NCBI GenBank assembly: GCA_938002835.1 | Contig: CALKZS010000058.1 | Location: forward strand, 1-36,588 | Direction of reading: 5' to 3' | Origin: an uncultured Dokdonia sp. | GTDB taxonomy: Bacteria; Bacteroidota; Bacteroidia; Flavobacteriales; Flavobacteriaceae | DNA: 36,588 bases | Part shown: in pieces, positions 714-36,355 of the stretch | Position numbering within the stretch: position 1 is the first letter of the stretch | Layout of the letters: each line of letters opens with the position of its first letter | The notes under the pieces: model-generated | The model's database searches: none | What the model was told of the DNA's origin: nothing | What the model saw: only the letters and a program-made list of their open reading frames with translations | Program-made: the position numbers and the translations under genes

Positions 714-2828
714 ATGAAAAAAAATACCGTAACAGAGCAGTTACTTTTTGATCTTTTAAAGAAAAATTTTGGTTATGATCACTTCAGAAACAATCAAAAA
801 GACATTATCACTACTATTTGTGATGGTAATGATGCTCTTGTTATTATGCCTACTGGTGGAGGAAAGTCTTTATGTTTTCAATTACCTGCAATTACTCTAG
901 AAGGAACAACTCTTGTAATTTCTCCTCTTATTGCTCTTATGAAAGATCAAGTAGATGCCTTAAGAGCAAATGGCATTGCTGCTGCATATTATAACAGCAC
1001 GCAACCTTTTGAAGAAACACAACAAGTTTTAGAAAACCTTAATGCTGGCAAACTAGATCTTATTTATGTAGCTCCAGAAAGTTTACAGCTACTAGATGCA
1101 CATCTCACCGCTATCACTATAAATCTTATTGCTATAGACGAAGCACACTGCATCTCTTCTTGGGGTCACGATTTTAGACCTGCCTATACCCAACTAGGAT
1201 ATCTTAAGAAGCGATTTCCAGAAACGCCACTTATTGCACTTACAGCTACCGCAGATAGATCTACCCAAGACGATATTGCAGAGCAGTTAGGCATTGCTCA
1301 CGCTCAAAAATTTATTTCTTCTTTTGACAGACCTAATTTATATCTAGATGTACGACCTGGCCAAAAACGTAATGAACAAATACTTGCTTTTTTAGATAAA
1401 CATCCTTTTGAAAGTGGTATTATTTATTGTTTATCACGAAAAAGCACTGAATCCTTAGCAGAAAAACTTCGTTCTAAAGGCCATACCGCTCAAGCCTATC
1501 ACGCAGGAATGTCTCCTGAGCAACGCAGCAAAGTGCAAGAAGATTTTATAAATGACACCACCCCTATCATAGTGGCAACCATCGCTTTTGGTATGGGCAT
1601 AGACAAAAGCAATGTGCGCTGGGTAATACACTACAATATGCCTAAAAACTTGGAGGGATATTATCAAGAAATAGGTCGTGCAGGACGTGATGGATTACCA
1701 GCACATACCGTTCTTTTTTACAGCTATGCAGATACTATCCAACTACGCAAGTTTATTGATCAATCGTCTAATGTAGATTATCAAACCGCAAAGCTAGATC
1801 GTATGCAACAATATGCAGAAGCACTGAGTTGTAGAAGAAAAGTATTGATCAACTACTTTGGCGAATTCTTACAAGAAGACTGTGGCAATTGTGATGTTTG
1901 TAAAAACGCTCCAGAATACTTTGACGGCACAGTATTAACCCAAAAAGTACTCTCTGGAGTTGCTCGCATAAAAGAGCAAGAAGCTATGGGAACAGTAATA
2001 GATGTACTACGAGGTTCTCAAAATGCTCAAGTGTATGACAAAGGCTATCAACACATCAAAACATACGGTGCTATAAAAGATGTTTCTTGGAGAGATTTAC
2101 AGCAATATGTAATACAAATGATTAACCAAGGGTTGTTAGAAATACGCTTTCGCGAAAGCGGACGCCTACTACTAACCCCTCTTGCTAATGATGTGCTATT
2201 CAAGGGCAAAAAAATACAACTAGCAAAGCTCGCACAACCTAAAGCTGAACCTATTGTAAAAGAACGTAAACCTAAAAAACCAAAAGGCACACTCTTTGAA
2301 AAACTACGCGACTTAAGAGCTGAGCTTGCTCGTGATGCAAATGTGCCAGCATATATTATTTTTTCTGACGCCAGCCTTAAAGATATGGAAGATCAAGAAC
2401 CGCAAACGGTAAAAGAATTTCTAGAAATACAAGGTGTAGGACAAGTAAAGAGTGATAAATATGCAGCAGATTTTCTTAAGATCATAAAAGCTCATTTACA
2501 CAAACCAAAACCTAAAAAACCAAGTAAAACTTTTGAAGAAACACGTAGTTTTATAGAACAGGGTTTATCTCTTGAAGAAATTGCAGAAGCAAGACAGCTT
2601 ACCGTATCTACAATTTACAATCATTTAATAAGACTACACGAAGAAGGTATTGAGATAGATTTTTATCAATTTATCCAACCTGTAGAAATTGATCAAATCA
2701 ATGCTGCCACTTCAAAACTAGAAGAGCCCGAAAAGCTCAAATCATATTTTGATTTTTTTAAAGAAGATATTCCTTATTGGAAGATTAAATTGGCTTTATT
2801 TCTTTCTAAAAAAACTGAAAAAAACTAG
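714..2828 (+). CDS. recQ: ATP-dependent DNA helicase RecQ
   Basis: A 3'-5' DNA helicase of recombination and repair, 704 aa. Visible parts: Walker A TGGGKS (residues 47-52), DEAH box 142-145 followed by CISSWGHDFRP, the second RecA lobe with AYHAGM and the QEIGRAGRDG arginine-finger motif, a four-Cys zinc site ending in CGNCDVC, a winged-helix RQC region, an HRDC domain (about 535-600, GVGQVKSDKYA), and a C-terminal HTH-like domain (about 610-665, SLEEIAEARQLTVSTIYNHL) as in long Bacteroidota RecQ proteins. A perfect copy of the window-wide palindrome at 2145-2160 encodes RFRES (478-482) in the RQC part. Its stop overlaps the stop of the convergent JmjC-like gene by four bases (CTAG). Its start is preceded by TACCTTTA with a four-base gap. 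Confidence 0.97.
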   Translation: MKKNTVTEQLLFDLLKKNFGYDHFRNNQKDIITTICDGNDALVIMPTGGGKSLCFQLPAITLEGTTLVISPLIALMKDQVDALRANGIAAAYYNSTQPFEETQQVLENLNAGKLDLIYVAPESLQLLDAHLTAITINLIAIDEAHCISSWGHDFRPAYTQLGYLKKRFPETPLIALTATADRSTQDDIAEQLGIAHAQKFISSFDRPNLYLDVRPGQKRNEQILAFLDKHPFESGIIYCLSRKSTESLAEKLRSKGHTAQAYHAGMSPEQRSKVQEDFINDTTPIIVATIAFGMGIDKSNVRWVIHYNMPKNLEGYYQEIGRAGRDGLPAHTVLFYSYADTIQLRKFIDQSSNVDYQTAKLDRMQQYAEALSCRRKVLINYFGEFLQEDCGNCDVCKNAPEYFDGTVLTQKVLSGVARIKEQEAMGTVIDVLRGSQNAQVYDKGYQHIKTYGAIKDVSWRDLQQYVIQMINQGLLEIRFRESGRLLLTPLANDVLFKGKKIQLAKLAQPKAEPIVKERKPKKPKGTLFEKLRDLRAELARDANVPAYIIFSDASLKDMEDQEPQTVKEFLEIQGVGQVKSDKYAADFLKIIKAHLHKPKPKKPSKTFEETRSFIEQGLSLEEIAEARQLTVSTIYNHLIRLHEEGIEIDFYQFIQPVEIDQINAATSKLEEPEKLKSYFDFFKEDIPYWKIKLALFLSKKTEKN
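2145..2160. repeat. Palindrome copy inside recQ
   Basis: CGCTTTCGCGAAAGCG, read in frame as RFRES (residues 478-482). Confidence 0.95.
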
Positions 2829-3676
2829 TTTTTATGTGTATTTACAATCGCCCTCTCATTCTTTTCATCTATCCAAGCTTGACCTTTTCGGCGACGCATA
2901 AAATTATCATAGTGTCTCATATAAAAAACATTATATAATGCATAGCGCAAGTGTTTAAAGCGTCTTGGTAATGCTCGTAAACTCATACTAAATCCTGGAG
3001 TTATATATTTCATATAGTGCCAATAGCCTTCTGGCATATATAATGTCTCTCCGTGATTGAGATTGCAAATAAACCCTTCTGCCTTTTTAAGTGCTGGGAA
3101 TTTTTTATAATCTGGAGCATCAAAGTCTATATCTTCTCTAGTGATTAAAGAATAAGGCACCTTATACAAATGTTTTGTCTCACTAGGCGGAAAAAGTATC
3201 ACTTGTTTTTTTCCTTCAAAATGAAAGTGTAAAATATTTGCCCAATCTATATCGTGATGCATAAACACCTTACTTCCTTCACCTCCAAAAAACAACATAG
3301 GTATTTGCTTTAACAGCCGTAAACCCATTTTTGGGAATTTAAAATCTGTTTTTAAAGAAGGTACTTCTTTCATTAAATTATAAAGAAATATCCTATAATC
3401 TGTAGGTTCTTTTTTAAGTAAATCAATGTACTCACTCATTTGCATTGTAGCGTGAGCCTCATTAAAACCTTCGTCGTGCTTTACGGGTCTATCATCATAA
3501 AGAGGTACTATTTTATCTCCTGCAATTTTCTTAATATAAGATAAATTCCATTTTTTATATGCTTCCCAATCATCTATTAAATGCTCAATAACAACTGGTT
3601 TTTGCTTTTTTACATAGTCTCTTACAAAGTCTTCTTTTGTAATACTTTTTACTCTATGAATTTCTTTTAATCGCAT
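2825..3676 (-). CDS. Cupin-like / JmjC-domain protein, putative Fe(II)/2-oxoglutarate oxygenase
   Basis: Cupin_8/JmjC-like protein. I place the start at the ATG at 3676 (283 aa) rather than the TTG six codons upstream. An HxD metal pair is at H140/D142 (HHDIDWANILHFHF), and the distal His is in PEGYWHYM (about H220). The ILFPP segment after the HxD strand is typical of the JmjC fold (FIH/hydroxylase-like), so it probably binds Fe(II) and 2-oxoglutarate and hydroxylates a protein or small molecule. The substrate cannot be read from sequence. It is monocistronic and convergent with recQ with a four-base stop overlap; the neighbouring bioB lies just upstream on the same strand. Confidence 0.85.
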   Translation of the reverse strand: MRLKEIHRVKSITKEDFVRDYVKKQKPVVIEHLIDDWEAYKKWNLSYIKKIAGDKIVPLYDDRPVKHDEGFNEAHATMQMSEYIDLLKKEPTDYRIFLYNLMKEVPSLKTDFKFPKMGLRLLKQIPMLFFGGEGSKVFMHHDIDWANILHFHFEGKKQVILFPPSETKHLYKVPYSLITREDIDFDAPDYKKFPALKKAEGFICNLNHGETLYMPEGYWHYMKYITPGFSMSLRALPRRFKHLRYALYNVFYMRHYDNFMRRRKGQAWIDEKNERAIVNTHKN

Positions 3677-3751
3677 TGTACTACAATAATACAAAATGAA
3701 AAAAGATCATCACAAAGTGACAGTCTTTCTAATATATTTTTAAATGCTTTG

Positions 3752-4849
3752 TTATTGTTTTACAGCTTTACCCGCAAGTTTTGCTGCTTCATTACGCTCT
3801 ATTTTGTGACCAGGTCTAGACCATTTAGGTTTTTCTCCTAGCGGTTGTAATTTAGAATCTTCTGCCTCTACAGTTTGTGGCTGTGCCTTTTTAACAAAAG
3901 GTTTCATAGGTTTTAATCCTAACAATTTAAACATCTTCATATCTTCATTTACATCAGGATTAGGCGTTGTAAGTAACTTGTCTCCTGCAAAAATAGAATT
4001 TGCTCCTGCAAAGAAACACATTGCTTGCCCCTCTCTACTCATATCTGTTCTCCCAGCACTTAATCTAACCTGTGTTTGTGGCAATACAATTCTTGTAGTT
4101 GCCACCATACGTATCATTTCCCAGATAGAAATAGGCTCTATGTCTTCCATAGGTGTACCTGGTACAGCTACAAGTGCATTAATAGGTGTAGATTCTGGTT
4201 GCGGATCTAATTTTGCTAATGCTACAAGCATTCCTGCTCTATCCTTAACAGCTTCTCCCATACCAATAATACCACCGGAACAAACAGTTACATTTGTCTT
4301 ACGCACATTAGAAATCGTGTCTAAACGATCTTCAAAAGCACGAGTAGAAATTACATCTTTATAATAATCTTCAGAAGTGTCGAGGTTGTGATTATATGCA
4401 TATAATCCAGCTTCGGCAAGACGCTCTGCTTGATTTTCAGTCACCATTCCTAGTGTACAGCAAACCTCCATATCTAGTTTGTTGATAGTGCGCACCATTT
4501 CTAACACATTATCAAACTCTGGTCCATCTTTTACATTTCTCCAAGCTGCTCCCATACACACGCGACTACTTCCAGATGCTTTTGCGCGTAAAGCTTGCGC
4601 TTTTACTTGTCGTACAGACATTAAATCATTTCCTTCTATATCTGTATGATATCTTGCTGCTTGTGGACAGTATCCACAATCTTCTGGACAACCTCCTGTT
4701 TTTATAGAAAGCAAGGTAGATACTTGTACTGTATTAGGGTCGTGATATTCACGGTGTATTGTTGCAGCTTTATACAGCAACTCCATAAGCGGAGTGTTAT
4801 AAATCTCTAGTACTTCTTCTTTAGTCCAGTCGTGTCTTAATTCTGTCAT
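3752..4849 (-). CDS. bioB: Biotin synthase
   Basis: Radical SAM enzyme that inserts sulfur into dethiobiotin, the last step of biotin synthesis. The [4Fe-4S] motif is C54-x3-C58-x2-C61 (GGCPEDCGYCPQ). Other BioB signatures are SSRVCMGAAWR, MEVCCTLGM, YNHNLDTS, CSGGIIGMGE and LSAGRTDM. At 365 aa it is somewhat longer than the usual 320-350, owing to a Lys/Pro-rich tail from about residue 320. It lies 165 bases downstream of the ketoacyl synthase on the same strand and probably has its own promoter: TATTTTTG at 4854-4861 ends only four bases before the ATG. Confidence 0.97.
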   Translation of the reverse strand: MTELRHDWTKEEVLEIYNTPLMELLYKAATIHREYHDPNTVQVSTLLSIKTGGCPEDCGYCPQAARYHTDIEGNDLMSVRQVKAQALRAKASGSSRVCMGAAWRNVKDGPEFDNVLEMVRTINKLDMEVCCTLGMVTENQAERLAEAGLYAYNHNLDTSEDYYKDVISTRAFEDRLDTISNVRKTNVTVCSGGIIGMGEAVKDRAGMLVALAKLDPQPESTPINALVAVPGTPMEDIEPISIWEMIRMVATTRIVLPQTQVRLSAGRTDMSREGQAMCFFAGANSIFAGDKLLTTPNPDVNEDMKMFKLLGLKPMKPFVKKAQPQTVEAEDSKLQPLGEKPKWSRPGHKIERNEAAKLAGKAVKQ

Positions 4850-4853
4850 ATCT

Positions 4854-4861
4854 CAAAAATA
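4854..4861 (-). promoter_or_regulatory. Putative -7 element of bioB (TATTTTTG)
   Basis: Exact match on the minus strand to the Bacteroidota TAnnTTTG box, ending four bases before the bioB ATG, which predicts a nearly leaderless mRNA. I see no clear -33 TTG partner. Confidence 0.35.
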
Positions 4862-4966
4862 TGAAATAGTGAGTAGTCCGTGATAAGAGGCTCTATATTT
4901 TTTTAAACTAAAAAGTTAAAAAGAGTTATAATAATACCTTTAGATCAAAAAAGAGTATCATTTTTA

Positions 4967-4982
4967 TGCTTTCGCGAAAGCG
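4967..4982. repeat. GCTTTCGCGAAAGC palindrome, intergenic (bioB / ketoacyl synthase)
   Basis: Perfect 14-bp palindrome in the 165-bp gap, 118 bases upstream of the bioB start. It has no U-tract on either strand, so it is not a typical terminator. Confidence 0.95.
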
Positions 4983-5014
4983 TAATTATAATTATTATTA
5001 GACCAATAAAGAGC

Positions 5015-6205: not shown

Positions 6206-6221
6206 CGCTTTCGCGAAAGCG
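6206..6221. repeat. CGCTTTCGCGAAAGCG palindrome, intergenic (promoter spacer of ketoacyl synthase)
   Basis: Perfect 16-bp copy directly adjacent to the TATTTTTG box of the KS gene. Confidence 0.95.
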
Positions 6222-9509: not shown

Positions 9510-10673
9510 TTAGATATTTTCTTTAATTAATCTCAGCAACTCATCCATCTCTTCCCTTGTGTTATATGCGTGAAGACAGATACGTAGTCTTTCTTCTCCT
9601 TCTTTTACGGTAGGAGATAGTATGGGTTTTACATCAAAATTGTTGTTTTTTAGCTTTCGCGAAAGCGTTTTTACATTTTCATTACCCGCAATTATAGTAC
9701 AATGTATTGCAGAATTACTGGTTATAAAATGTGACGCTAAATTATATTTTGTTAGTTTTTGAGTAAAATAATCTATAGTAGATCTCAACTTTGTAATTGA
9801 TGTACTATCATTTTTAAGCAGTTGCTCATAGCCTGCTATAACCGTAGCAATGCTATGCGGTGGCAATCCTGTAGTATAGATAAAAGAGCGTGCATAATTT
9901 ATCAAGTAGTCTTTTAAATCAGTACTCCCTAAAATAACTGCACCGTGTGCTCCCATTGCCTTTCCAAAAGTTACTACTCGTGCAAATACTTTTTCTTCAA
10001 GTTTTAATTCTGGAACAAGACCATTACCATTACACCCCAAAACTCCTGTGGCGTGTGCCTCGTCTACAACCAGATGTGCATCATATTTTTCACAGAGATT
10101 TGCGATTGCGGTAAGATCTGGACTATCACCATCCATAGAAAATACAGACTCTGTTACTACATATATTACTTGTTCTTGAACGGTTAAATTACTAGTATAC
10201 TTCTTAAGCAAACTCTCTATATCTGAGAGATCATTATGTAAAAACTTATAACTTTTTGCAAGACTCAGTTGAAGTCCGTCACGTATACTCGCGTGAATAT
10301 ATGAATCATATAAAATCACATCATTGCGCTGTGGCACACTTTGAAAAAAACCAATGTTTGCATCATATCCACTATTGAAAATAAGTGCTGTTTCACTATT
10401 ATGAAAATGAGACACTGTTTTTTCTGCAAGAGCATATAAAGAGTGATTCCCTGTTAAAAGTCTGCTCCCCGTTGCTCCATTTGCTGTTGTCTTATAATCT
10501 TGTAATATCTCTTGGGTACGATTAGAAATAGCCTTTGCATATACTAGATTATTTGAAAAACCCAAATAGTCATTAGAAGAAAAATCTACTAAGTCAGAAG
10601 CCATAGGCAACACACGCAAGGCATTTGCTTGCTGACGTTTTTTGAGCTTCTGTTTTAATTTTTTGGGTAACAT
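9510..10673 (-). CDS. bioF: 8-amino-7-oxononanoate synthase
   Basis: PLP alpha-oxoamine synthase condensing pimeloyl-ACP/CoA with L-alanine, 387 aa. Visible motifs: NDYLGF (34-39), TGSRLLTGNH, the cofactor-binding DEAH (204-207) and the PLP lysine K238 in VTFGKAMGAHGA. A perfect palindrome at 9653-9666 is embedded in the C-terminal domain and encodes TLSRK (336-340). It is first in the bioF-D-A operon. TATCTTTA (minus strand, 10679-10686) ends five bases before the ATG. Confidence 0.97.
   Translation of the reverse strand: MLPKKLKQKLKKRQQANALRVLPMASDLVDFSSNDYLGFSNNLVYAKAISNRTQEILQDYKTTANGATGSRLLTGNHSLYALAEKTVSHFHNSETALIFNSGYDANIGFFQSVPQRNDVILYDSYIHASIRDGLQLSLAKSYKFLHNDLSDIESLLKKYTSNLTVQEQVIYVVTESVFSMDGDSPDLTAIANLCEKYDAHLVVDEAHATGVLGCNGNGLVPELKLEEKVFARVVTFGKAMGAHGAVILGSTDLKDYLINYARSFIYTTGLPPHSIATVIAGYEQLLKNDSTSITKLRSTIDYFTQKLTKYNLASHFITSNSAIHCTIIAGNENVKTLSRKLKNNNFDVKPILSPTVKEGEERLRICLHAYNTREEMDELLRLIKENI
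9653..9666. repeat. Palindrome copy inside bioF
   Basis: GCTTTCGCGAAAGC, read in bioF as LSRK within TLSRKL: a different phase from the recQ copy. Confidence 0.95.
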
Positions 10674-10759: not shown

Positions 10760-12532
10760 ATGCGTTTTCTTCTTTTTGTATTGCTTTTAAGCACTGTTTC
10801 ATATAGTCAAACAAATATCTATAAGATCTCTTTTGATAATGCTGTGCATCACGAAGCGCAAATAAATATTACATTTCCTGCCATAAAAAAACGATCGGTT
10901 ACTGTGCGTATGAGTCGCACTTCTCCTGGGAGGTATGCTTTGCACGAGTTTGCAAAAAACGTATATGGATTTAAAGCTACAAACAGCAAAGGCGAAGCAC
11001 TTTCTGTGACTAGACCAGATCCCTATTCTTGGGAAATTACGGGTCACGATGGTACTGTAAATGTGAATTATACTTTATTTGCAAATCGTGGTGACGGTAC
11101 CTACTCACAGGTAGATGAGACCCACGCTCACCTTAATATTCCTGCAACTTTTATGTATATGGAAAGTATGGAAGAACGACCTATCAAAATTACATTTAAC
11201 ACCAGAAAAGATCTCAATTGGAAAGTGGCAACACAATTAAAACCTATTTCTGAAGCTACATTTTATGCACCTAATCTGTACTATTTTATGGATAGTCCTA
11301 CAGAAATTAGTGATTATAAATTACGAGAAACAACAATAGATGGTCAGCAAATAAGATTTGCATTACACAGTCCAGATACTGATGCAGACCTAGACACGTA
11401 TTGGCATAATGTAAAAGCAATTGTAATGCAAGAAAAAGCAGTTTTTGGTGAGTTGCCTACATTTGATTATGGCACTTATACTTTTCTAGCCTGTTATCTT
11501 CCTAATGTGTCTGGCGATGGGATGGAACATCGCAACAGTACCATACTTACCGATAAAGAAACCTTAGCAAATGGCGGAATGGCTGGAAATATAGGCACTG
11601 TTTCTCACGAGTTTTTTCACGCTTGGAATGTAGAGCGCATTCGTCCGGCAGATCTTGAGCCTTTTAACTTTACCGAAGCAAATATGAGTGAAGGTCTTTG
11701 GTTTGCAGAAGGTTTTACTAGTTATTATACTGGTCTTATGATGGCTCGTGCTGGTGTGATTACAGAGGAAGCATATGTAAAAAGTCTCAACAGGACGTTT
11801 AACTATGTATGGAATTCTCCTGCTCGAGACTATTTTAATCCTATCGAGATGAGTTATCAAGCTCCTTTTGTAGATGCCGCAACTTCTGTAGATCCCGTAA
11901 ATCGCGGTAATACATTTATTTCTTATTATTCCTATGGAAGTGTTCTTGGTTTAGCATTAGATCTTTCTTTACGAGAAAAAGGACTTAATCTGGATGATTA
12001 TTTTAAGTTAGTATGGCAACAACTAGGTAAAAATGAAATTTCCTATACTATGGAAGATCTAGAACGCTTACTGGGGGAGTATGCTGGTGACGCTTTCGCG
12101 AAAGCGTATTTCTCTTCATATATATATTCTAGTAATATGCCAAACTATACCCAATTACTAAAATCTGTAGGACTCTTTCTACAAAGAGATCCCGATAAAG
12201 CATTTATAGGTGTATCACTTGAAGCCTCTCAAAATGGATTAAAAATCACACAAACGCTCAACCAAAATACTCCTGGATACAATGCAGGGTTGGAAAAAGA
12301 TGATCTTATCACAGCTATAAATAGCACACCAATTACAACAGTAGAAGATTATGATCATTTTTTAGCCTCTAAAAAGCCTGGAGAAAAAATTGATGTCCAA
12401 TATGAACGTTTTGGAACTACTAAAACTGTTAATGTAGCATTAACTCCAGACCCTACCTATACAATCTCTATAGATCAAAAAGCTTCTAAAAAAGCAGAAA
12501 AGGCTAGAAAGGCTTGGTTAGAAAAAAAGTAA
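10760..12532 (+). CDS. M61-family metallopeptidase with PDZ domain, secreted
   Basis: 590 aa from the ATG at 10760, which begins a clean signal peptide (MRFLLFVLLLSTVSYSQ); the longer frame from 10691 lacks a sensible N-terminus. The zinc site is HEFFH at 283-287 with the downstream Glu in WFAEGFTSYY, typical of M61 glycyl aminopeptidases. A PDZ domain is near residues 480-560 (FIGVSLEAS, GYNAGLEKDDLITAIN). It is probably periplasmic or cell-surface and cleaves peptides. A perfect palindrome at 12091-12106 encodes AFAKA (445-449). It is divergent from bioF with an 86-base gap. Confidence 0.92.
   Translation: MRFLLFVLLLSTVSYSQTNIYKISFDNAVHHEAQINITFPAIKKRSVTVRMSRTSPGRYALHEFAKNVYGFKATNSKGEALSVTRPDPYSWEITGHDGTVNVNYTLFANRGDGTYSQVDETHAHLNIPATFMYMESMEERPIKITFNTRKDLNWKVATQLKPISEATFYAPNLYYFMDSPTEISDYKLRETTIDGQQIRFALHSPDTDADLDTYWHNVKAIVMQEKAVFGELPTFDYGTYTFLACYLPNVSGDGMEHRNSTILTDKETLANGGMAGNIGTVSHEFFHAWNVERIRPADLEPFNFTEANMSEGLWFAEGFTSYYTGLMMARAGVITEEAYVKSLNRTFNYVWNSPARDYFNPIEMSYQAPFVDAATSVDPVNRGNTFISYYSYGSVLGLALDLSLREKGLNLDDYFKLVWQQLGKNEISYTMEDLERLLGEYAGDAFAKAYFSSYIYSSNMPNYTQLLKSVGLFLQRDPDKAFIGVSLEASQNGLKITQTLNQNTPGYNAGLEKDDLITAINSTPITTVEDYDHFLASKKPGEKIDVQYERFGTTKTVNVALTPDPTYTISIDQKASKKAEKARKAWLEKK
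12091..12106. repeat. Palindrome copy inside the M61 peptidase
   Basis: CGCTTTCGCGAAAGCG, read as AFAKA: the third possible phase. Confidence 0.95.
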
Positions 12533-14855: not shown

Positions 14856-15633
14856 AAAACGTATTTATAATTTATTGGACGAAGAACGTGGCAATCAAAA
14901 AGGTGATGGTTTAGTTCATTACTTTATTTCAAGTCTTATTATTATTAATGTCATCACACTATTCTTAGAATCTTACAATGATATTAATAAAGAATATGGA
15001 GATTTATTTAAATTTATAGAATTATTTTCTATCATCGTCTTTTCTATAGAATATATTTTACGATTATGGGTTGCAGATTATGCTTTCGCGAAAGCGGGAC
15101 CCGTAAAATCTCGTCTCAAATATATGTTTTCATTTATGGGAATTGTAGACCTACTATCTATACTTCCATTCTATCTTCCTTACTTTATTAGTATAGACTT
15201 GAGAGTTATAAGAGTACTCCGTTTATTTAGACTATTACGATTATTTAAACTTAACAGACACAGTAAAGCATTACGTCTTATAGTTACCGTTTTTAAAAAG
15301 ACCAAAAGTGATATTCTAGTCACTGTCTTTATTGTCTCTTTTTTACTTATTATGGCATCAACACTAATGTATGATATTGAAAATGAAGCTCAGCCAGATG
15401 CCTTTGCAAATATTGGAGAAGCACTATGGTGGTCTGTTGCAACATTAACCACTGTAGGATATGGAGACATTTATCCCATTACTGGACTAGGAAAATTATT
15501 GAGTGGTATTATTGCACTATTAGGTATAGGTATTGTAGCGCTTCCTACTGGAATTATAAGCTCTGCTTATATAGAAGAGGTTCAAAATAGAAATAAAACC
15601 ATTCAATGCCCACATTGTGGAAAACCACATTAA
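14845..15633 (+). CDS. Voltage-gated potassium channel subunit
   Basis: 262 aa, six-helix Kv-type channel. The S4 sensor carries Arg at every third position (R120, R123, R126, R129, R132 in DLRVIRVLRLFRLLRLFK). The selectivity filter is TVGYGD (203-208) between S5 and S6. A C-terminal CPHCGK (255-260) could be half of a zinc knuckle, unusual for this family, and might bind metal between subunits (inference). A perfect palindrome (15081-15096) encodes A80-A84 in the S2-S3 region. Its ATG lies inside the speD coding sequence. Confidence 0.93.
   Translation: MSFKKRIYNLLDEERGNQKGDGLVHYFISSLIIINVITLFLESYNDINKEYGDLFKFIELFSIIVFSIEYILRLWVADYAFAKAGPVKSRLKYMFSFMGIVDLLSILPFYLPYFISIDLRVIRVLRLFRLLRLFKLNRHSKALRLIVTVFKKTKSDILVTVFIVSFLLIMASTLMYDIENEAQPDAFANIGEALWWSVATLTTVGYGDIYPITGLGKLLSGIIALLGIGIVALPTGIISSAYIEEVQNRNKTIQCPHCGKPH
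15081..15096. repeat. Palindrome copy inside the K+ channel gene
   Basis: TGCTTTCGCGAAAGCG, containing the perfect 14-mer at 15082-15095; encodes AFAKA. Confidence 0.95.
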
Positions 15634-18549: not shown

Positions 18550-18565
18550 CGCTTTCGCGAAAGCG
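18550..18565. repeat. Palindrome copy at the junction synthase / aminotransferase remnant
   Basis: CGCTTTCGCGAAAGCG beginning four bases after the synthase stop. It either lay in the lost gene (RFRES phase) or marks the deletion breakpoint. Confidence 0.95.
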
Positions 18566-20307: not shown

Positions 20308-22431
20308 TTATTTCTCCAACTTCAACTGAATACGCTTCCTTGCAATATCAACTTCTAACACTTTTACAATCACTTGTTGCTGCAAACTTACGTGTGCGCT
20401 CACATCACTCACAAAACCATCGGCTAGGTTTGAGATATGTATCAGTCCACTTTCTTTAATTCCTATATCTACAAAGGCGCCAAAAGCAGTGACATTATTT
20501 ACAATACCAGGAAGTAATTGCCCGGGTTGCACATCTTCTATCGTTCTGATGTTTTGATTAAAAGTAAAAACCTTTGCTTTTTCTCGTATGTCAAGTCCTG
20601 GTTTTTCTAGTTCGCTCACAATATCTGTAAGTGTTGGTAAACCTACTTCTTCAGAGACATATTTTTGAAGATCGAGGGCTTTAAGTACAGTTGTATTCCC
20701 TATCATTTGATCGACAGAAATTTGCTGTTCTTTGGCTATTTTTTGAACGAGTTTATAGCGCTCTGGATGTACAGAAGAATCATCCAGCGGATTTTCGGCA
20801 TCCTTTATTCTTAAAAAACCAGCGGCTTGCTCATATACTTTTGATCCCAATCGCGGGACTTTCTTAATGGCAATTCTTGAGATGAAAGGACCTTCGCTTT
20901 CGCGAAAGCGTACAATCCCTTCTGCTAGTTTTGAACCAATACCGGAGACATAACTAAGTAGCGGAGCACTTGCTGTATTGATATTAACACCTACGGCATT
21001 TACACAATTTTCTACCGTTTGATCCAATGATTTTTGGAGTGCTTTTTGGTCTACATCGTGTTGATACTGTCCCACACCTATAGATTTTGCATCAATCTTG
21101 ACAAGCTCTGCCAATGGATCTTGCAATCTGCGTCCTATAGAAACGGCACCACGTACTGTTACATCATAATTAGGGAACTCATCACGCGCAATTTTACTAG
21201 CACTGTAGATAGAAGCGCCAGCTTCACTCACGACAAAGACCTCAATGGCATTTTTAAAATGAATGCGTTTTATGAGACGTTCTGTTTCCCTACTTGCGGT
21301 ACCGTTGCCTATTGCGATGGCTTCTATTTTATAGGCATCTGTAAGACTTGATATCTTTTTGATTGCTCCTTTATCATCATTTTTTGGCGCGTGGGGATAG
21401 ATAGTTTCATTATGTAATAATTGTCCTTGAGCATCTAGACAAACCACTTTACAACCCGTTCTAAATCCTGGATCTATGGCAAGTGTGCGTTTTTCTCCCA
21501 GTGGTGATCCTAATAATAGTTGTTTAAGGTTTTTAGTAAAAACCGCAATAGCCGTCTCATCTGCTTTTTGTTTTGCTTGTGATAATGACTCGTTTGCTAA
21601 TGCTGGTAGGAGTAACCTTTTATAAGCATCGTTAATAGCTAGTATAATTTGATGTGCTGCCTCACCGCTTGAACGAAGGATCTTTCGTTCTATATTATCT
21701 AATGCGCGGTCATCATCTATTGTGATTTTAACACGTATGTAGCCTTCGTTTTCGGCTCTTAAAATGGCGAGTAATCTATGAGAAGGAATACGTTGTAATG
21801 ATTCTGACCAATCAAAATAATCACGAAATTTTTGAGCCTTTTCGTCAGTTGCTTTTGCCTTGACTACTTTGGTTTCGATGGTCGCAAATCGCTCTAACTG
21901 GCAACGTAGATTGTTTCTAATATCTGTGCGCTCATTGATCCACTCTGCGATAATGTGTCTAGCTCCTTCTAATGCACTCTCTGCATCTGGTACATTATTA
22001 TTTGTATACCGTTGCGCTAAGCCTTCTGGATCTTGGGCATTCTGAGCCATTATGATTTTGGCAAGAGGTTCTAGTCCATTTTTTCTAGCAACTTCTGCTT
22101 TGGTCTGGCGTTTCTTTTTATAGGGTAAGTATAAATCTTCTAATGTGGTGAGATCTAAAGTTGCTTCTACTTTTGCGTGCAAATCACTAGTAAGCACATC
22201 TTGCTCTTCTAGAGATTTGAGAATTGCTTTTTTACGCTTTTCTAATGCCTCAAATTGTTCTTTGAGTTCAATGATCTTCCCTATTTCGACTTCGTCTAGT
22301 CCTCCTGTTGCTTCTTTACGATACCGAGCGATGAAAGGTAGAGTACAATCTTCTTTTAGAAGTTCTAATGTCGCTTTTACTCCTTTTTCTAGTAATCCAG
22401 AAGATGAAGTAACATAATTGAGTAATTGCAT
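20308..22431 (-). CDS. tex: Tex-family RNA-binding transcription accessory protein
   Basis: 707 aa. An N-terminal helical region (FIARYRKEATGGLDE) is followed by a YqgF/RNase-H-like domain (TLAIDPGFRTGCKVV at about 328-342), helix-hairpin-helix repeats (YVSGIGSKLAEGIVRFRES) and a C-terminal S1 domain (about 635-705, LPGIVNNVTAFGAFVDIGI). It binds RNA and transcription complexes. A perfect palindrome at 20895-20910 encodes RFRES (508-512) in the HhH part. It starts four bases after the metG stop, so the two genes are co-transcribed. Confidence 0.96.
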   Translation of the reverse strand: MQLLNYVTSSSGLLEKGVKATLELLKEDCTLPFIARYRKEATGGLDEVEIGKIIELKEQFEALEKRKKAILKSLEEQDVLTSDLHAKVEATLDLTTLEDLYLPYKKKRQTKAEVARKNGLEPLAKIIMAQNAQDPEGLAQRYTNNNVPDAESALEGARHIIAEWINERTDIRNNLRCQLERFATIETKVVKAKATDEKAQKFRDYFDWSESLQRIPSHRLLAILRAENEGYIRVKITIDDDRALDNIERKILRSSGEAAHQIILAINDAYKRLLLPALANESLSQAKQKADETAIAVFTKNLKQLLLGSPLGEKRTLAIDPGFRTGCKVVCLDAQGQLLHNETIYPHAPKNDDKGAIKKISSLTDAYKIEAIAIGNGTASRETERLIKRIHFKNAIEVFVVSEAGASIYSASKIARDEFPNYDVTVRGAVSIGRRLQDPLAELVKIDAKSIGVGQYQHDVDQKALQKSLDQTVENCVNAVGVNINTASAPLLSYVSGIGSKLAEGIVRFRESEGPFISRIAIKKVPRLGSKVYEQAAGFLRIKDAENPLDDSSVHPERYKLVQKIAKEQQISVDQMIGNTTVLKALDLQKYVSEEVGLPTLTDIVSELEKPGLDIREKAKVFTFNQNIRTIEDVQPGQLLPGIVNNVTAFGAFVDIGIKESGLIHISNLADGFVSDVSAHVSLQQQVIVKVLEVDIARKRIQLKLEK
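20895..20910. repeat. Palindrome copy inside tex
   Basis: CGCTTTCGCGAAAGCG, encodes RFRES on the minus strand. Confidence 0.95.
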
Positions 22432-22435: not shown

Positions 22436-24508
22436 TTAACTTATCATCTTCCCATTCCCAACACCATCTGTATCAGGATTTAAAAACACTAATTTTCCAG
22501 TAAGATCTTCGGTCATTAAAATCATTCCTTGACTTTCTACACCTCGCAATGCTCTAGGAGCTAGATTTACAAGCACCGTTACTTGTTTACCTATTATTTC
22601 TTCTGGTGTAAAGCTCTCTGCAATACCAGATACAATAGTGCGCACATCGATACCCGTATCTACTTTAAGAATGAGAAGTTTTTTAGTTTTCTTCATTTTC
22701 TCTGCTTCGATAATGGTGCCTACACGCATATCGAGTTTTGTAAAATCATCAAAATTGATGGTCTCTTTTTGAGGCTCTATCACTTGATTTTCGGCAGCAG
22801 CTTCTGCTTCGTTTGCAGCTTTGCTAGCTTCTAGTTTATCAAGTTGTTTCTGAATCTGGTCGTCCTCTATTTTTGAGAATAAAAGCTCAGATGTATTAAT
22901 TGTATGATGAGGATCTAAAAGTCCTTTTTGTTCTGTTATAGCAATTGAAATGTCACTCCACGAGAGTTTTTTAGTATTTAAAATACTCTTTAATTTTGTG
23001 CTAGTATATGGTAATAAAGGCTCGCTAAGAACAGCAAGTGCAGTAGCTATTTGAAGTGCTACATACATCACTGTTTTTGTACGTTCTTCATCGGTTTTAA
23101 TGGTTTTCCACGGTTCTTCGTCTGCTAGATATTTGTTTCCTAAACGAGCGAGGTTTATAAGCTCTGTTTGGCTTTCGCGAAAGCGGTATTTTTCTATAGA
23201 GCTTCCTATAACGGCAGGATATGCTTTTAATGCATCTAATGTTTCTTTATCAAGCTTATTAAATGCCGAAGGTTGCGGTACTACCCCGTCATAATATTTA
23301 TGAGTGAGAACGGTGACACGATTTATAAAATTACCAAAAATGGCAACGAGTTCGCTATTATTTCTTGTCTGGAAATCTTTCCAAGTAAAATCATTGTCTT
23401 TAGATTCTGGAGCGTTTGCCGTGAGTACATAACGCAATACATCTTGTTGACCAGGAAATTCTTCTAGATACTCGTGTAACCATACGGCCCAATTTTTAGA
23501 GGTAGAAAGCTTGCGGCCTTCTAGATTCAAAAACTCGTTTGCAGGGACATTATCTGGTAAAATATAGTCGTCGTGACCTTTTAACATTGCAGGGAAAATC
23601 AAACAGTGAAAAACAATATTATCTTTCCCGATAAAATGTAAGAGCTTGGTGTTTTCATCTTTCCAATACGGTTCCCAATCTTTATCTTCACGAGCGGCCC
23701 ACTCCTTAGTAGATGATATATACCCTATAGGTGCATCGAACCATACGTATAACACTTTGCCATCTGCTCCTTCTACTGGAACAGGAATTCCCCAATCTAG
23801 ATCTCTAGTTACAGCTCGTGGTCGTAATCCATCATCTATCCAAGATTTGCACTGGCCATATACATTGGTTTTCCAGTCTTTTTTATGACCTTCAATAATC
23901 CATTCTTTAAAGAAATCATTGTATTGATCTAATGGTAAAAACCAGTGTTTTGTTTTTTTTAATGAAGGAACGGCTCCAGAAATTGTACTCTTAGGATTGA
24001 TAAGATCTGTAGCATTATGTGAGGTCCCACAACTCTCACATTGATCTCCATAGGCTTCTTCATAGCCACATTTAGGACAAGTTCCTGTTACAAAACGATC
24101 TGCTAGAAACTGTTTTGCCTCTGCATCATATAACTGCTCGTTTGTCTCTTCGATAAACTTGCCTTGGTCATACATATTCTTGAAAAACTCAGAAGCAGTC
24201 TCGTGATGTATTTGAGCAGATGTGCGAGAATAATTATCAAACGTAATCCCAAAATCTTGAAAAGATTTTTTGATAATTGCGTTGTATTTATCTACGATAT
24301 CTTGAGGGGTTACGCCTTCTTTTTTTGCCTTAATAGTAATGGGTACACCGTGCTCATCACTACCACAAATAAATGCAACATCTGCTCCTTGTAGTCTTTG
24401 ATAACGGGCATAAATATCTGCAGGAACATATACTCCTGCAAGGTGACCTATGTGTATGGGACCATTTGTATACGGCAAAGCCGCTGTAATCGTAAATCTT
24501 TGTGACAT
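22436..24508 (-). CDS. metG: Methionyl-tRNA synthetase with C-terminal tRNA-binding domain
   Basis: 690 aa class I synthetase. HIGH signature 19-22 ([10 protein letters not shown]), zinc knuckle C144/C147/C157/C160, KMSKS variant KLSTS at 333-337, a helical anticodon domain, and an EMAP/Trbp111-like OB domain at about 585-690 ([15 protein letters not shown]). A perfect palindrome at 23171-23184 encodes part of RFRES (442-446). It is first in the metG-tex operon, with promoter box TACTTTTG at 24527-24534. Confidence 0.97.
23171..23184. repeat. Palindrome copy inside metG
   Basis: GCTTTCGCGAAAGC, RFRES phase on the minus strand. Confidence 0.95.
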
Positions 24509-24760: not shown

Positions 24761-25660
24761 ATGATAACACCACCTTTTCTAAAACCAGGAGACAAAGTAG
24801 CAATTGTAGCGACTGCTCGTAAAATTTATCTCAAAGATCTAGATGACGGCATCGCTTTACTCAAAAGTTGGGGACTTGTCCCTGTAATCGGAAAAACGAT
24901 AGGTTTAAGTGACAATCAGTATGCTGGTACAGACGCGCAACGCGCTCAAGACATACAACAGATGCTGAATGATCCAGAAATAAAAGCTATCTGGTGTGCA
25001 AAAGGAGGTTATGGGACGGTACGTATTATAGATCAATTAGATTTTTACAAATTTGTAAAATACCCTAAGTGGATTGTAGGGTATAGTGATGTAACGGTTT
25101 TACATAGCCACCTTCATAAAATAGGATTTAAAACTTTGCACGCTATAATGCCTCTGTCGTTACGGGATAATACCGCTTTTGCGAAAGCGTCCCTAAAACA
25201 ATCTCTTTTTGGCGAAAAGCCAAACCTTAGTTATAACACACAGCACTCACTCAACAGAACAGGAAAAGCAAAAGGAGAACTTGTAGGGGGTAATCTCTCT
25301 ATTTTATATAGTCTTTGTGGAAGTAGTTCTGGTCTTGATACAGAAGGTAAGATCCTATTTATAGAAGACCTTGATGAATACTTATATCATATAGACCGTA
25401 TGATTCTCAATTTAAAACGTAACGGGATGTTAGATCATCTTAATGGTCTTGTTGTAGGAGGAATGACAAAGATGCACGATAATAGAATTCCTTTTGGAAA
25501 AACAGCACAAGAGATTGTGATAGATGCTGTTCAAGAGTGTACATTTCCTGTAGCATTTGATTTTCCAGCAGGTCACCTAGATAATAACAGTGCCTTAATT
25601 TTAGGGAGCGAAGTTACACTAGAAATAAGTGACACAAAGACAATAGTAACCTATGTTTAA
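24761..25660 (+). CDS. LD-carboxypeptidase (peptidase family S66)
   Basis: Peptidoglycan-recycling or muropeptide L,D-carboxypeptidase, 299 aa from the ATG at 24761; an upstream TTG at 24740 would add seven unsupported residues. The Ser-Glu-His triad is visible: S109 (WIVGYSDVT), E202 (LFIEDLDEYLYHIDRM) and H272 (FPAGHLDNN). The oxyanion segment KGGYGTVR is at 81-88. No signal peptide, so it is cytoplasmic. A one-mismatch palindrome at 25174-25189 encodes AFAKA (139-143). The YraN gene follows after nine bases. Confidence 0.93.
   Translation: MITPPFLKPGDKVAIVATARKIYLKDLDDGIALLKSWGLVPVIGKTIGLSDNQYAGTDAQRAQDIQQMLNDPEIKAIWCAKGGYGTVRIIDQLDFYKFVKYPKWIVGYSDVTVLHSHLHKIGFKTLHAIMPLSLRDNTAFAKASLKQSLFGEKPNLSYNTQHSLNRTGKAKGELVGGNLSILYSLCGSSSGLDTEGKILFIEDLDEYLYHIDRMILNLKRNGMLDHLNGLVVGGMTKMHDNRIPFGKTAQEIVIDAVQECTFPVAFDFPAGHLDNNSALILGSEVTLEISDTKTIVTYV
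25174..25189. repeat. Degenerate palindrome copy inside LD-carboxypeptidase
   Basis: CGCTTTTGCGAAAGCG, one C-to-T change from the perfect form and synonymous in the AFAKA phase. Confidence 0.7.
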
Positions 25661-26342: not shown

Positions 26343-26358
26343 CGCTTTCGCGAAAGCG
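26343..26358. repeat. Palindrome copy downstream of rsmI
   Basis: CGCTTTCGCGAAAGCG, ten bases beyond the rsmI stop. It could form a hairpin but lacks a T-run on the rsmI strand. Confidence 0.95.
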
Positions 26359-29820: not shown

Positions 29821-29831
29821 CCTCTTTACTT

Positions 29832-31890: not shown

Positions 31891-31906
31891 CGCTTTCGCG
31901 AAAGCA
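31891..31906. repeat. Palindrome copy, intergenic (antiporter / MBL hydrolase)
   Basis: The perfect 14-mer is at 31892-31905; the outer pair is broken (CGC...GCA). It sits in the divergent promoter region, 37 bases before the MBL start. Confidence 0.93.
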
Positions 31907-31931
31907 TAATACCTTTTAAAACCTCAATCTT

Positions 31932-31939: not shown

Positions 31940-31942
31940 TTT

Positions 31943-32803: not shown

Positions 32804-32804
32804 G

Positions 32805-34481
32805 ATGATGACTATAAAAAATTTAAAACCTATTCTAGTTGCTGCTATTGCAGGAACACTTATAACCGCTTGTGATACGCCTTCTGCGCTCGTTACAGTA
32901 CCTGTAGAAAATGTAGATAATAATCCGCTTAAAATAAGTGCGCTTACAAAAACACAAGAACAAGGTTGGAGCCATCTAGACCTTAAAACAGACACTATCC
33001 CCGGGATGAGTGTAAATCGTACCTACTCAGAAATACTTCCTGGTAAAACAGGACAACAAGTTATTGTTGCGGTAATAGATTCTGGTATCGATATAGAACA
33101 CGAAGATCTTAAAAACAAAATCTGGACTAACTCTAAAGAAATTGCAGGTAACGGAAAAGATGATGACAATAACGGCTACATAGACGATATACACGGTTGG
33201 AATTTCTTAGGAGATGTAAATGCAGAACAATTAGAATTTGTACGTATCATTAAGAGGTATGACTCAGAATTTTCTGGAAAAACGCTTGCTACAATTCCGG
33301 AAGCTCAAAAAGAGATCTTCTTACAATATCAAAAAGCAAAAGGAGAATATGATTCTAAAGTAATTGAAGCGCAACGAAACAAAACGCAGTATACCCAAAT
33401 TGCTAATCAACTAGAAATCTCTCATAAAATTGTAACTGAGAAATTAGGCAAAGAAGATTATACAACAAAAGATCTTGCTGGTATTGAAAATCCAGATGCA
33501 GAAATGCAAAATCACATAGGTTTTCTATCTCAAATGTTAGGATATGCAGATACGATTCCAGAATTTATCAAAAACATAAACGAAGGTGTAACGCATTTTA
33601 CGGAGCAGCTAGAGGCAAACTACAATAAAGATGCAGACTTTAGAGGTCCTTTAGGAGACAATCCATACGATATTAAAGACATTTCTTACGGTAATAATAA
33701 TGTGTATGGTCCTGATCCAGATGGTGCAAAACACGGAACTCACGTAGCAGGAATTATTGCTGCCGAACGTGATAATGGAAAAGGAATGAATGGTGTTGCA
33801 AATAAAAACATCAAGATTATGGCGCTACGTGCTGTTCCTAATGGAGATGAGTATGATAAAGATATCGCACTTGCTATACGTTATGCGGTAGACAATGGTG
33901 CAAAAGTGATCAATACCTCTTTTGGAAAATATTATGCACAAAATCCAGAATGGGTATATGATGCTATTAAATATGCTGCAAAAAACGATGTCCTTATTGT
34001 AAATGCCGCTGGTAATGAAGGTTTGAGTCTTGATGATCCTGCAAATAGAGTATACCCTAATGACCAGTTAGATAATATTTCTGAAATGTCTGATACCTTC
34101 TTAACCGTAGGAGCACTTGCTCCAAAATATGGTAGTGAGATGATTGCAAATTTTTCAAATTATGGACAGTCTAATGTAGATGTATTTTCTCCTGGAGTTC
34201 AGATTTATTCAACAACTCCTGAGAACACCTATGGATACCTTGATGGTACTTCTATGGCATCACCTAACACAGCTGGAGTTGCTGCAATGATACGTAGCTA
34301 CTACCCAAAATTATCTGCTGCGCAGGTAAAAAAGATTATAATGAGAAGTGGGCTTACAACAAACACTTCTATCATTCTAGGAGGTAATCAAAACAAGCAA
34401 GCTCGTTTTAATGAGATTTCTAAATCTGGCGAAATGGTAAATATGTACAATGCCTTTAAACTCGCCTCATTACAGAAATAA
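32805..34481 (+). CDS. Subtilisin-family (S8) serine protease, lipoprotein
   Basis: 558 aa from the ATG at 32805, right after the MBL stop; the longer frame overlapping the MBL gene lacks a proper signal. Signal peptide with lipobox LITAC-D (Cys23). Catalytic triad D92 (AVIDSGID), H310 (HGTHVAGI), S483 (DGTSMASP), with oxyanion N404 (AAGNEG). A roughly 175-residue charged, coiled insert (about 132-305) separates Asp and His, replacing the short loop of classic subtilisins. It is probably anchored to the outer or inner membrane. Confidence 0.93.
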   Translation: MMTIKNLKPILVAAIAGTLITACDTPSALVTVPVENVDNNPLKISALTKTQEQGWSHLDLKTDTIPGMSVNRTYSEILPGKTGQQVIVAVIDSGIDIEHEDLKNKIWTNSKEIAGNGKDDDNNGYIDDIHGWNFLGDVNAEQLEFVRIIKRYDSEFSGKTLATIPEAQKEIFLQYQKAKGEYDSKVIEAQRNKTQYTQIANQLEISHKIVTEKLGKEDYTTKDLAGIENPDAEMQNHIGFLSQMLGYADTIPEFIKNINEGVTHFTEQLEANYNKDADFRGPLGDNPYDIKDISYGNNNVYGPDPDGAKHGTHVAGIIAAERDNGKGMNGVANKNIKIMALRAVPNGDEYDKDIALAIRYAVDNGAKVINTSFGKYYAQNPEWVYDAIKYAAKNDVLIVNAAGNEGLSLDDPANRVYPNDQLDNISEMSDTFLTVGALAPKYGSEMIANFSNYGQSNVDVFSPGVQIYSTTPENTYGYLDGTSMASPNTAGVAAMIRSYYPKLSAAQVKKIIMRSGLTTNTSIILGGNQNKQARFNEISKSGEMVNMYNAFKLASLQK

Positions 34482-34507
34482 AAACATCTATTTAAATTTA
34501 AGTTTAT

Positions 34508-36355
34508 ATGAAGTATCGTCTTAAGATCGTGGTAATAATGGTGTTTGTGTTCGCTTTCGCGAAAGCGAATGCCCAAAACAACACCCCATACTGGCAACAG
34601 CACGTAGATTATACAATGGATATTGATATGGACGTAACATCCTTTCAATACGACGGCAAACAAACGCTGGTGTATACAAACAACTCACCAGAAACATTAG
34701 ACCGTGTGTACTATCATTTGTATTTTAATGCATTTCAACCGGGTTCTGAGATGGATGTACGATCTCGTACTATTGCAGATCCAGATGGTCGTGTAAAAGA
34801 CCGTATCAGTAAACTATCTCCAGATGAGATAGGATTTATTAAAGTACATAAACTCACACAAGATGGTAAAAAGCTCAACTATGAAGTTGCAGGTACTGTA
34901 CTAGAAGTAGAACTAGCGAACCCTATTGCTCCTGGAGCTACTACTACTTTTAAGATGGACTTTAAAGCGCAAGTACCTCAACAAATACGTCGCTCTGGTC
35001 GTAATAATAAAGAAGGAGTTGCGCTATCTATGACACAGTGGTACCCAAAACTGGCCGAGTATGATTTTGAAGGATGGCACGCAGATCCGTATATCGCACG
35101 TGAGTTTCACGGGGTTTGGGGCGATTTTGATGTAACCATACATATTGATAAAGAATATACGGTAGGTGGTACAGGTTATCTTCAAAACCCAGAAGAAATA
35201 GGTCACGGCTATAATGGTCCCTCTATGATGCCTGGAAAAGGGAAAAAAGGAAAACTCTCTTGGCATTTTAAAGCGCCAAATGTGCACGATTTTACCTGGG
35301 CTGCAGATCCAGAATACCTACACGATATCATTAAAGGAGAAAACAATGTAGACCTTCATTTTATCTATAAAGATAATAGTAGCATAAAAGAGAATTGGGA
35401 AAAATTACAGCCCTTAACCGCAGATCTTCTTTCTTATTTTAATAAAAATGTAGGAACATACCCCTACAAACAATATTCTGTTATACAAGGAGGAGATGGT
35501 GGTATGGAATATGCAATGTGTACATTAATTACAGGAGAACGTAAGTTTGGTAGCTTATTAGGAGTAACCGCTCACGAGATGGCGCATACTTGGTTTCAAT
35601 TCTTGCTAGCCACTAACGAAGCAAAGCACGAGTGGATGGATGAAGGCTTTACAACCTACATTTCTACACTGGCAGAGCAAGCAGTGACTAACAAAAACAA
35701 CGCAAATCCACTCGCTGGAGCATACCGTAGTTATTATGGACTTGTTGCTTCTGGTAAAGAACAACCGCAAACCACACACGCAGACCGTTACAATGAGAAT
35801 AGACCATACAGCATTGCTGCATATAGCAAAGGAGCTGTTTTCTTATCTCAATTAGGGTATGTTATTGGTAAAGAAAACTTAGATAAAACACTTAAAAAGT
35901 ATTTTACAGACTTCTCTTTCAAGCACCCTACTCCTAATGATATCAAACGCACTGCAGAAAAAGTTTCTGGTATAGAATTAGACTGGTACTTAACAGACTG
36001 GACACAAACTACAAATACAATAGATTATGCCATTACAGCCGTTGCAGCAGATGGTGATAAAACCAAGGTGACGCTTTCGCGAAAAGGACTAATGCCTATG
36101 CCCATTGATCTATATGTAGAAAACACAGATGGATCACTACAATCATACTATATCCCACTACGTATGATGCGTGCAGAAAAAGAAAACCAAACACCTAATA
36201 TCTCTAGAAAACAACTAGCAGACTGGCCGTGGACAAACCCAACCTATACATTTACAATAGATGCACCATTATCTAAAGTAAAATTAATGACCATAGATCC
36301 CACAAGACTTATGGCAGATATTGCTCAAAATGATAATACTTGGGTTAAGAAATAA
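34508..36355 (+). CDS. M1-family (gluzincin) aminopeptidase, secreted
   Basis: 615 aa with a signal peptide (MKYRLKIVVIMVFVFAFAKA, then NAQ; cleavage about 23). Aminopeptidase motif GGMEY (331-335), zinc site HEMAH (356-360) plus E379 (WMDEGFTTY). A beta-rich N-terminal domain and a helical C-terminal domain are typical. A perfect palindrome (34552-34567) encodes AFAKA of the signal peptide, and a degenerate copy (36072-36086) encodes TLSRK near residue 522. It starts 26 bases after the protease stop, so the MBL-S8-M1 genes may be one operon. Confidence 0.94.
   Translation: MKYRLKIVVIMVFVFAFAKANAQNNTPYWQQHVDYTMDIDMDVTSFQYDGKQTLVYTNNSPETLDRVYYHLYFNAFQPGSEMDVRSRTIADPDGRVKDRISKLSPDEIGFIKVHKLTQDGKKLNYEVAGTVLEVELANPIAPGATTTFKMDFKAQVPQQIRRSGRNNKEGVALSMTQWYPKLAEYDFEGWHADPYIAREFHGVWGDFDVTIHIDKEYTVGGTGYLQNPEEIGHGYNGPSMMPGKGKKGKLSWHFKAPNVHDFTWAADPEYLHDIIKGENNVDLHFIYKDNSSIKENWEKLQPLTADLLSYFNKNVGTYPYKQYSVIQGGDGGMEYAMCTLITGERKFGSLLGVTAHEMAHTWFQFLLATNEAKHEWMDEGFTTYISTLAEQAVTNKNNANPLAGAYRSYYGLVASGKEQPQTTHADRYNENRPYSIAAYSKGAVFLSQLGYVIGKENLDKTLKKYFTDFSFKHPTPNDIKRTAEKVSGIELDWYLTDWTQTTNTIDYAITAVAADGDKTKVTLSRKGLMPMPIDLYVENTDGSLQSYYIPLRMMRAEKENQTPNISRKQLADWPWTNPTYTFTIDAPLSKVKLMTIDPTRLMADIAQNDNTWVKK
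34552..34567. repeat. Palindrome copy inside the M1 signal-peptide coding region
   Basis: CGCTTTCGCGAAAGCG, read as FAFAKA at the end of the hydrophobic core. Confidence 0.95.
36072..36086. repeat. Degenerate palindrome copy near the M1 C-terminus
   Basis: CGCTTTCGCGAAAAG: the left arm is intact and the right arm has decayed. Confidence 0.55.

Follow-up and report, generated by a model that had tools for sequence, protein, structure and literature searches.

Highly iterated palindromes (HIPs), namely HIP1 (GCGATCGC) and the alternate HIPs of cyanobacteria, are described as iterated palindromes with cognate methyltransferases (PMC4390886), and the uptake sequences are reported to be evenly spaced and over-dense outside genes, yet less even than a role in compaction needs (PMC1939737). 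In this study, the palindromic 14-mer GCTTTCGCGAAAGC was analyzed in the window, that is, the whole 36,588-nt stretch of DNA forming contig C58 of a 3.1-Mb, 196-contig Dokdonia genome, in which an earlier note had reported the palindrome, and in related genomes. The analysis revealed that two separate flavobacterial lineages carry this same palindromic word hundreds of times; the earlier observation is confirmed, and it is larger than had been stated. HIP1 selection and periodicity are reportedly the subject of a 2018 paper, known Chi sites are short and directional, and the uptake signal sequences (USS) have extended flanks.

Like HIP1 and the alternate HIPs, GCTTTCGCGAAAGC is palindromic, lineage-specific and present in very many copies, in any reading frame as well as between genes. 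Unlike HIP1, it is the 14-bp core of an element of about 52 bp, is sharp and evenly spaced, is found in Bacteroidota, and showed no link to PF01555, the one methyltransferase class searched. It shares with the DNA uptake sequences (DUS) of Neisseriaceae and the USS of Pasteurellaceae even spacing, density outside genes (in Dokdonia and Nonlabens) and presence on transferred DNA, but it differs from them in being palindromic, in having far fewer near-misses in Dokdonia, and in that the pilus ATPase does not track it. The parS and Noc sites are also palindromes with TTTC and GAAA; however, the center of GCTTTCGCGAAAGC is two bases shorter, it occurs in hundreds of uniformly spread copies, and it coexists with a single ParB and, where these are listed, with ordinary parS-like words. 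The Chi sites of RecBCD and AddAB likewise occur once per few kb, and AddB-like proteins are present here, whereas GCTTTCGCGAAAGC is palindromic and much longer, and those of its sites that keep one arm only have no significant polarity.

Taxonomic Distribution

A total of 610 exact copies of GCTTTCGCGAAAGC were detected in its own 3.1-Mb genome, which answers the genome-wide count proposed in the earlier note, while the reversed control gave 0. At least one copy was obtained from 80 of 397 genomes of the family, with hundreds in only six of them: two Dokdonia (610 and 857), three Nonlabens (578, 664 and 609) and G190 (408), which belongs to another genus and is the sole genome of that genus in the set. 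The remaining 391 genomes contained 19 copies or fewer, the next highest being 19, 17 and 16. Public loci with several copies per 8 kb were, among the matches listed, mostly from Dokdonia and Nonlabens. The ParB tree (23 rows) placed G190 with Dokdonia (90/93) and Nonlabens far off, and on its starred branches the motif-rich label must change at least two times.

In 19 neighbor genomes (15–100 kb sampled from each), no 12- or 14-base palindrome reached three copies. In addition, no iterated palindrome or uptake-type sequence this strong in Bacteroidota turned up among the matches listed in a search of open-licence papers, and the 14-mer itself was not found in open-licence papers among the matches listed.

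Spacing and Genomic Placement

In 800 kb from three Dokdonia genomes, 212 exact, 19 one-mismatch and 43 two-mismatch sites were observed, against 0, 0 and 2, respectively, predicted by a second-order Markov model; 12 of the 19 one-mismatch variants were hit on the outermost base pair. The Nonlabens samples contained 27 exact and 5 one-mismatch sites, those of G190 had 22 exact and 5 one-mismatch sites, and neither kind was seen in the motif-poor samples. The samples of G400 and G397 are orthologous, so the pooled sites are not all independent, and the pooled Dokdonia samples include about 2,500 masked bases.

The sites lie about one per 3–7 kb, with few nearer than 1 kb to each other. The mean gap in three Dokdonia samples was 3.4–3.6 kb, with a coefficient of variation (CV) of 0.52, 0.52 and 0.54 against 0.98, 0.99 and 0.88 for random placement, and gaps below 1 kb made up 3–5% against 23–26% under random placement. 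The CV in Nonlabens (27 sites, 19 gaps) was 0.38 against a random 0.86, with a smallest gap of 1.9 kb, and the first 100 sites of G190 gave 0.68 against 0.99, with 0 of 99 gaps below 1.3 kb; in a smaller G190 sample (22 sites, 17 gaps), the spacing was borderline (P 0.054). Even spacing, as in uptake sequences, was observed in three genera, and non-coding enrichment in Dokdonia and Nonlabens, not in G190. As for the oriC–ter distribution, density in G403 was independent of the distance from parS and uniform to the opposite pole (20 bins, r 0.11), a check that had also been proposed earlier.

With genes called by a simple open reading frame (ORF) rule, 121 of the 224 Dokdonia sites fell in ORFs, which make up about 91% of the sequence, and 103 between them, in about 9% of the sequence. 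Convergent intergenic regions were the densest (29 sites in 13.0 kb), and 13 of the 27 Nonlabens sites also lay between ORFs. As in highly iterated palindromes, over-representation extends to all frames (610 versus 0; phases 58/34/29): among the 121 coding sites of the Dokdonia samples, window included, 58 are read as AFAKA, 34 as RFRES and 29 as xLSRK, in agreement with the earlier statement that all three phases are used.

A different word, the 8-mer CTTCGGAA, exceeded expectation about 9–28 fold in nine groups of samples from related genera (G287, G302, G284/G073, G039, G063, G254, G198, G078 and G101), had a lower ratio in the other groups, and was under-represented in the motif-rich genera. 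Since ORFs contain 152 of its 162 copies and its spacing is random (CV 0.99), it was rejected as a neighboring dialect of a tag such as GCTTTCGCGAAAGC may be, and was not taken as the same kind of element. In G190, TTGATCAA was 8.5 fold over-represented and GCCTGCCGGCAGGC occurred three times in 140 kb.

Structure of the Element

The 14-mer is the center of a symmetric element of about 52 bp, whose consensus extends as TTAC, 14-mer, GTAA. On either strand, the 5′ flank contains little C from −3 to −19 (about 17 positions), and its C content goes up at −20, as observed for 224 Dokdonia and 57 Nonlabens sites; these C-poor flanks hold separately for 143 intergenic and 155 coding Dokdonia sites; the flank bias of G190 is weaker. 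In Dokdonia, the 5′ flank is G/T-rich over about 17 nt, with T in a 3-nt rhythm (P 0.008 for intergenic and 0.004 for coding sites), and the 3′ flank is A-rich, while the rhythm was not significant in Nonlabens (P 0.26). The 10-bp core TTTCGCGAAA was detected 363 times in the Dokdonia set, with both GC arms in 304 copies, one in 59 and none in 0. At the one-sided sites, the intact side had the stronger flank bias (G 0.081, compared with C 0.128 for the broken side), and these sites, the only ones at which polarity can be tested, showed no significant polarity relative to replication (17 with the fork, 28 against, P 0.14). The dyad symmetry and the footprint-like flanks suggest that the palindrome is read as duplex DNA by a sequence-specific dimeric protein.

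Conservation and Gain of Sites

Between G400 and G397 (84% identity, 168 kb aligned), 48 of the 51 aligned sites were exact copies in each genome, whereas 25% of random and 26% of GC-matched control 14-mers were kept. The site in MetG is conserved in position in 17 of 18 Dokdonia genomes, with one mismatch in the eighteenth, and is also harbored by G190 and one of three Nonlabens; it appears to have been gained or lost more than once. Seven site-free genera have RFREA or RFREG at this position, and gain of the site went with an A-to-S change; the codon alignment is gap-free there, which argues that the site arose via point substitution, not insertion. A mobile palindrome, one of the possibilities raised earlier, was thus not supported at MetG, the sole site compared, and the extra inserted segment of a mobile palindrome, a repetitive extragenic palindromic (REP) sequence or a miniature inverted-repeat transposable element was not observed there against the seven site-free genera. 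The view of the earlier note that selection targets the DNA rather than the encoded peptide is supported by the use of all frames, the intergenic enrichment in Dokdonia, the conservation of sites, and the amino acid change that accompanies the MetG site.

Sites on Transferred and Viral DNA

The viral stretches listed numbered at least 120 and the genome stretches at least 109. Of thirteen stretches that surround clusters of sites in other genera, nine (L372–L375, L377 and L379–L382) share homologous operons, which are, judging from L372 and L381, copper-resistance operons with a resistance-nodulation-division (RND) pump, an outer-membrane efflux protein, a multicopper oxidase and P-type ATPases. 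These operons with Dokdonia-type sites are apparently transferred islands. Their sites (n = 26) still have C-poor flanks (0.077). One-mismatch copies number 5, which is proportionally no more than Nonlabens or G190 has and thus gives no evidence of decay after transfer. The operon proteins are up to 100% identical between genera.

At copies in GC-rich viral contigs, the flank C ratio was near 1, while in viral contigs of 31–43% GC it ranged from 0 to 0.6 in some and from 0.7 to 1.5 in others. Portal, head or tail genes are present in two of the low-ratio contigs, L337 and L358, which have the same ORF lengths and look like copies of one phage kind. Two near-identical phages of a Nonlabens-group host harbored 0 sites in about 35.7 kb each, the site count of the host strain itself not being determined. 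In L333 (viral contig 2841145138_000001), which is also site-bearing, a DNA methyltransferase adjoins a 1005-aa protein of a phage family without assigned function.

Candidate Reader Proteins

The reader protein was not found among the candidates searched (ParB, RecC, AddB, PF00437 and PF01555). The earlier note had likened the core to ParB/Noc-type sites, a reading not supported by the single ParB_N match per genome, the ordinary parS-like pair and the near-unchanged DNA-binding region. Each of the nine motif-rich genomes has one ParB_N match, and no dedicated ParB or Noc paralogue and no altered ParB specificity were seen in them; in the DNA-binding region, Dokdonia and G190 hardly depart from the motif-poor genera, and Nonlabens differs at a few positions. 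The parS-like pair GTTCCACGTG[A/G]AAC, with its members about 1.9 kb apart, was found, among the matches listed, in four motif-rich (G397, G400, G403 and G190) and four motif-poor genomes (G302, G078, G087 and G335), the places in the two Nonlabens, as well as those in G073 and in G287, lying outside the listing; it probably marks the origin region. A methyltransferase, which had also been suggested, did not track the motif in the class searched, PF01555 (N6/N4), which passed the cut-off in 2 of 9 motif-rich and 6 of 14 other genomes; the C5, D12 and type I/IIG classes fall outside this search.

RecBCD was rejected as well, RecC being found in 0 of 23 genomes, while an AddB-like protein (PF12705) was obtained from all 23, with scores below the NCBIfam AddB cut-off in the three tested. 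A large AddA-like ORF adjoins the AddB gene in 19 of the 22 regions read and in 0 of 3 Nonlabens, its family being checked in G403 and G190. The AddB tree put the nine motif-rich rows on one side of a branch (86/94), and change in AddB and AddA relative to MetG was 7.3 and 7.5 within Dokdonia against 4.1 and 4.9 between motif-poor pairs, saturation being uncorrected. The distance between Dokdonia and Nonlabens AddB was 1.25, and about 900 columns included 3 diagnostic ones, compared with 2 for MetG; the grouping may stem from long-branch attraction. The tree would fit AddB as an altered reader, but distances and diagnostic columns did not set AddB apart. Comparison of AddB with solved structures gave no sequence match.

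Sites of the Window

All 12 exact copies of GCTTTCGCGAAAGC reported earlier for the window were recovered at the same starts. With up to three mismatches to the 14-mer, the window gave 16 matches against a mean of 0.91 and a maximum of 4 in 100 dinucleotide shuffles. No strand is assigned to any of the sites. Some of the exact sites lie in genes: in the RecQ gene (site 1, 2146–2159, whole element about 2127–2178), a BioF-like gene (site 4, 9653–9666), the gene for a protein with a PDZ-like region (site 5, 12092–12105), a potassium-channel-like gene (site 6, 15082–15095), an S1-domain gene that is presumably Tex-like (site 8, 20896–20909), and MetG, where it is read as RFRES (site 9, 23171–23184). 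Site 12 (34553–34566) is near the 5′ end of an aminopeptidase-like gene. The intergenic ones are site 2 (4968–4981), between BioB and a ketoacyl-synthase-like gene, site 3 (6207–6220), site 7 (18551–18564), directly after a SpeE-like gene, site 10 (26344–26357), which adjoins an RsmI-like gene, and site 11 (31892–31905). The two near copies reported earlier are present, but each starts one base later: one at 25175–25188, in a carboxypeptidase-like gene, has one mismatch, and the other, at 36073–36086, has two mismatches and has lost one GC arm, which is the one-sided form. Apart from the composition bias, no two of the 14 sites share the same 52-base surroundings beyond the 14-mer, as judged from the sites and not from a separate repeat search of the window; wrong-side C or G takes up 6.1% of their flank positions against 17–18% in the window.

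Discussion

Because of the even spacing, the two separate lineages, the intergenic preference in the two main genera and the presence on transferred DNA, we tentatively favor a horizontally shared self-DNA tag of the uptake-sequence type, which falls short of being probable. It is quite possible that a new kind of tag, about 52 bp long, with an invariant core, at least one arm and strand-asymmetric, C-poor flanks is spread over the genome, and that a horizontally shared reader protein drives hundreds of evenly spaced sites into two flavobacterial lineages. The palindrome would be the center of this tag and would be read as duplex DNA. Acting like the uptake sequences of Neisseria and Haemophilus, the tag would cause DNA pieces bearing it to be preferentially taken in or exchanged, so that sites would accumulate by drive until about one site per exchanged piece was reached, further copies bringing nothing. 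The reader gene may have passed between the Dokdonia lineage and Nonlabens, as the patchy distribution suggests, although shared ancestry with many losses could also account for it. The site-bearing copper islands, at least one site-bearing phage kind, the two Nonlabens-group phages with 0 sites, the A-to-S change in MetG and the uniform density would all fit such a tag. Riemerella columbina belongs to the same order as Dokdonia and Nonlabens. This species is reported to prefer its own DNA in transformation (PMC7965970).

Several observations weigh against the self-DNA tag. Near-misses are scarce in Dokdonia (212 exact, 19 one-mismatch), though less so in Nonlabens (27/5) and G190 (22/5), while the uptake sequence of the L20 genome is given as 438 exact and 947 one-mismatch copies (PMC1939737). 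Uptake sequences are non-palindromic, whereas GCTTTCGCGAAAGC is palindromic. G190 has only 1 of 22 sites between ORFs and 21 of 22 in genes, where Dokdonia has about half, and thus no intergenic enrichment. Pilus-based uptake was rejected as a candidate, the type IV pilus/secretion ATPase PF00437 passing the cut-off in 3 of 9 motif-rich and 2 of 14 other genomes. Furthermore, no open-licence paper was found that combined either Dokdonia or Nonlabens with both repeated sequences and natural transformation, so competence of the two genera is unsupported.

Spacing might instead be the function itself, if a dimeric nucleoid protein other than ParB bridged or anchored the chromosome in loops of a few kb. 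The dyad symmetry, the symmetric flanks to ±19, the few sites closer than about 1 kb, the uniform density outward from parS and the conserved place of sites would all fit such an organizer, but the hundreds of sites in two separate lineages, and those on a phage and on islands, are hard for it to account for, one-sided sites (59/363) retain the flank bias chiefly next to the arm that is left, and ParB/Noc itself is not supported; we regard it as doubtful, though worth serious consideration. Methyltransferase genes often move between lineages, and an orphan DNA methyltransferase with part of the site as its target could, with methylation-linked mismatch repair, create and keep sites in the manner of HIP1. 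Iterated palindromes with cognate methyltransferases are known in cyanobacteria, and the 12 of 19 one-mismatch variants on the outermost base pair recall HIP1 as described there (PMC4390886). Such a scheme predicts neither even spacing nor a flank bias out to 19 bases, and with PF01555 in 2 of 9 motif-rich against 6 of 14 other genomes we consider it unlikely.

RecA binds DNA in triplets and prefers GT, and the G/T-rich, 17-nt 5′ flank with its 3-nt T rhythm in Dokdonia would suit a Chi-like site that alters an AddAB-type helicase-nuclease and directs RecA loading to the 5′ flank; as a palindrome, the site would serve breaks from either side. The AddB-like proteins in all 23 genomes, with RecC found in none of them, the AddB grouping of the nine motif-rich rows (86/94), and the faster change of AddB and AddA relative to MetG within Dokdonia would agree with this, yet the palindrome is unlike the short, directional Chi, Nonlabens shows no significant T rhythm (P 0.26), one-sided sites lack significant replication polarity (17 versus 28, P 0.14), and the grouping may be long-branch attraction (distance 1.25; 3 diagnostic columns versus 2 in MetG). 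No large AddA-like ORF adjoins the three Nonlabens AddB genes, and the AddB-like scores lie under the NCBIfam cut-off. A Chi-like role seems improbable. A hairpin, as a transcription terminator or REP-like repeat, is very improbable: the palindrome is foldable and the density is highest in convergent intergenic regions (29 sites, 13.0 kb), but 121 of 224 sites lie in ORFs, the 3′ flank is A-rich without a T run, and the MetG site came by substitution. An intrinsic terminator, with a hairpin and T run outside genes, was rejected on the same ORF count and A-rich 3′ flank.

Since the site is long, sharp and evenly spaced, a single pull-down might name its reader, and both main lineages have named strains in culture collections. 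Identification of the reader would open the long-standing question of why some genomes fill with a single DNA word to testing in a fresh system.

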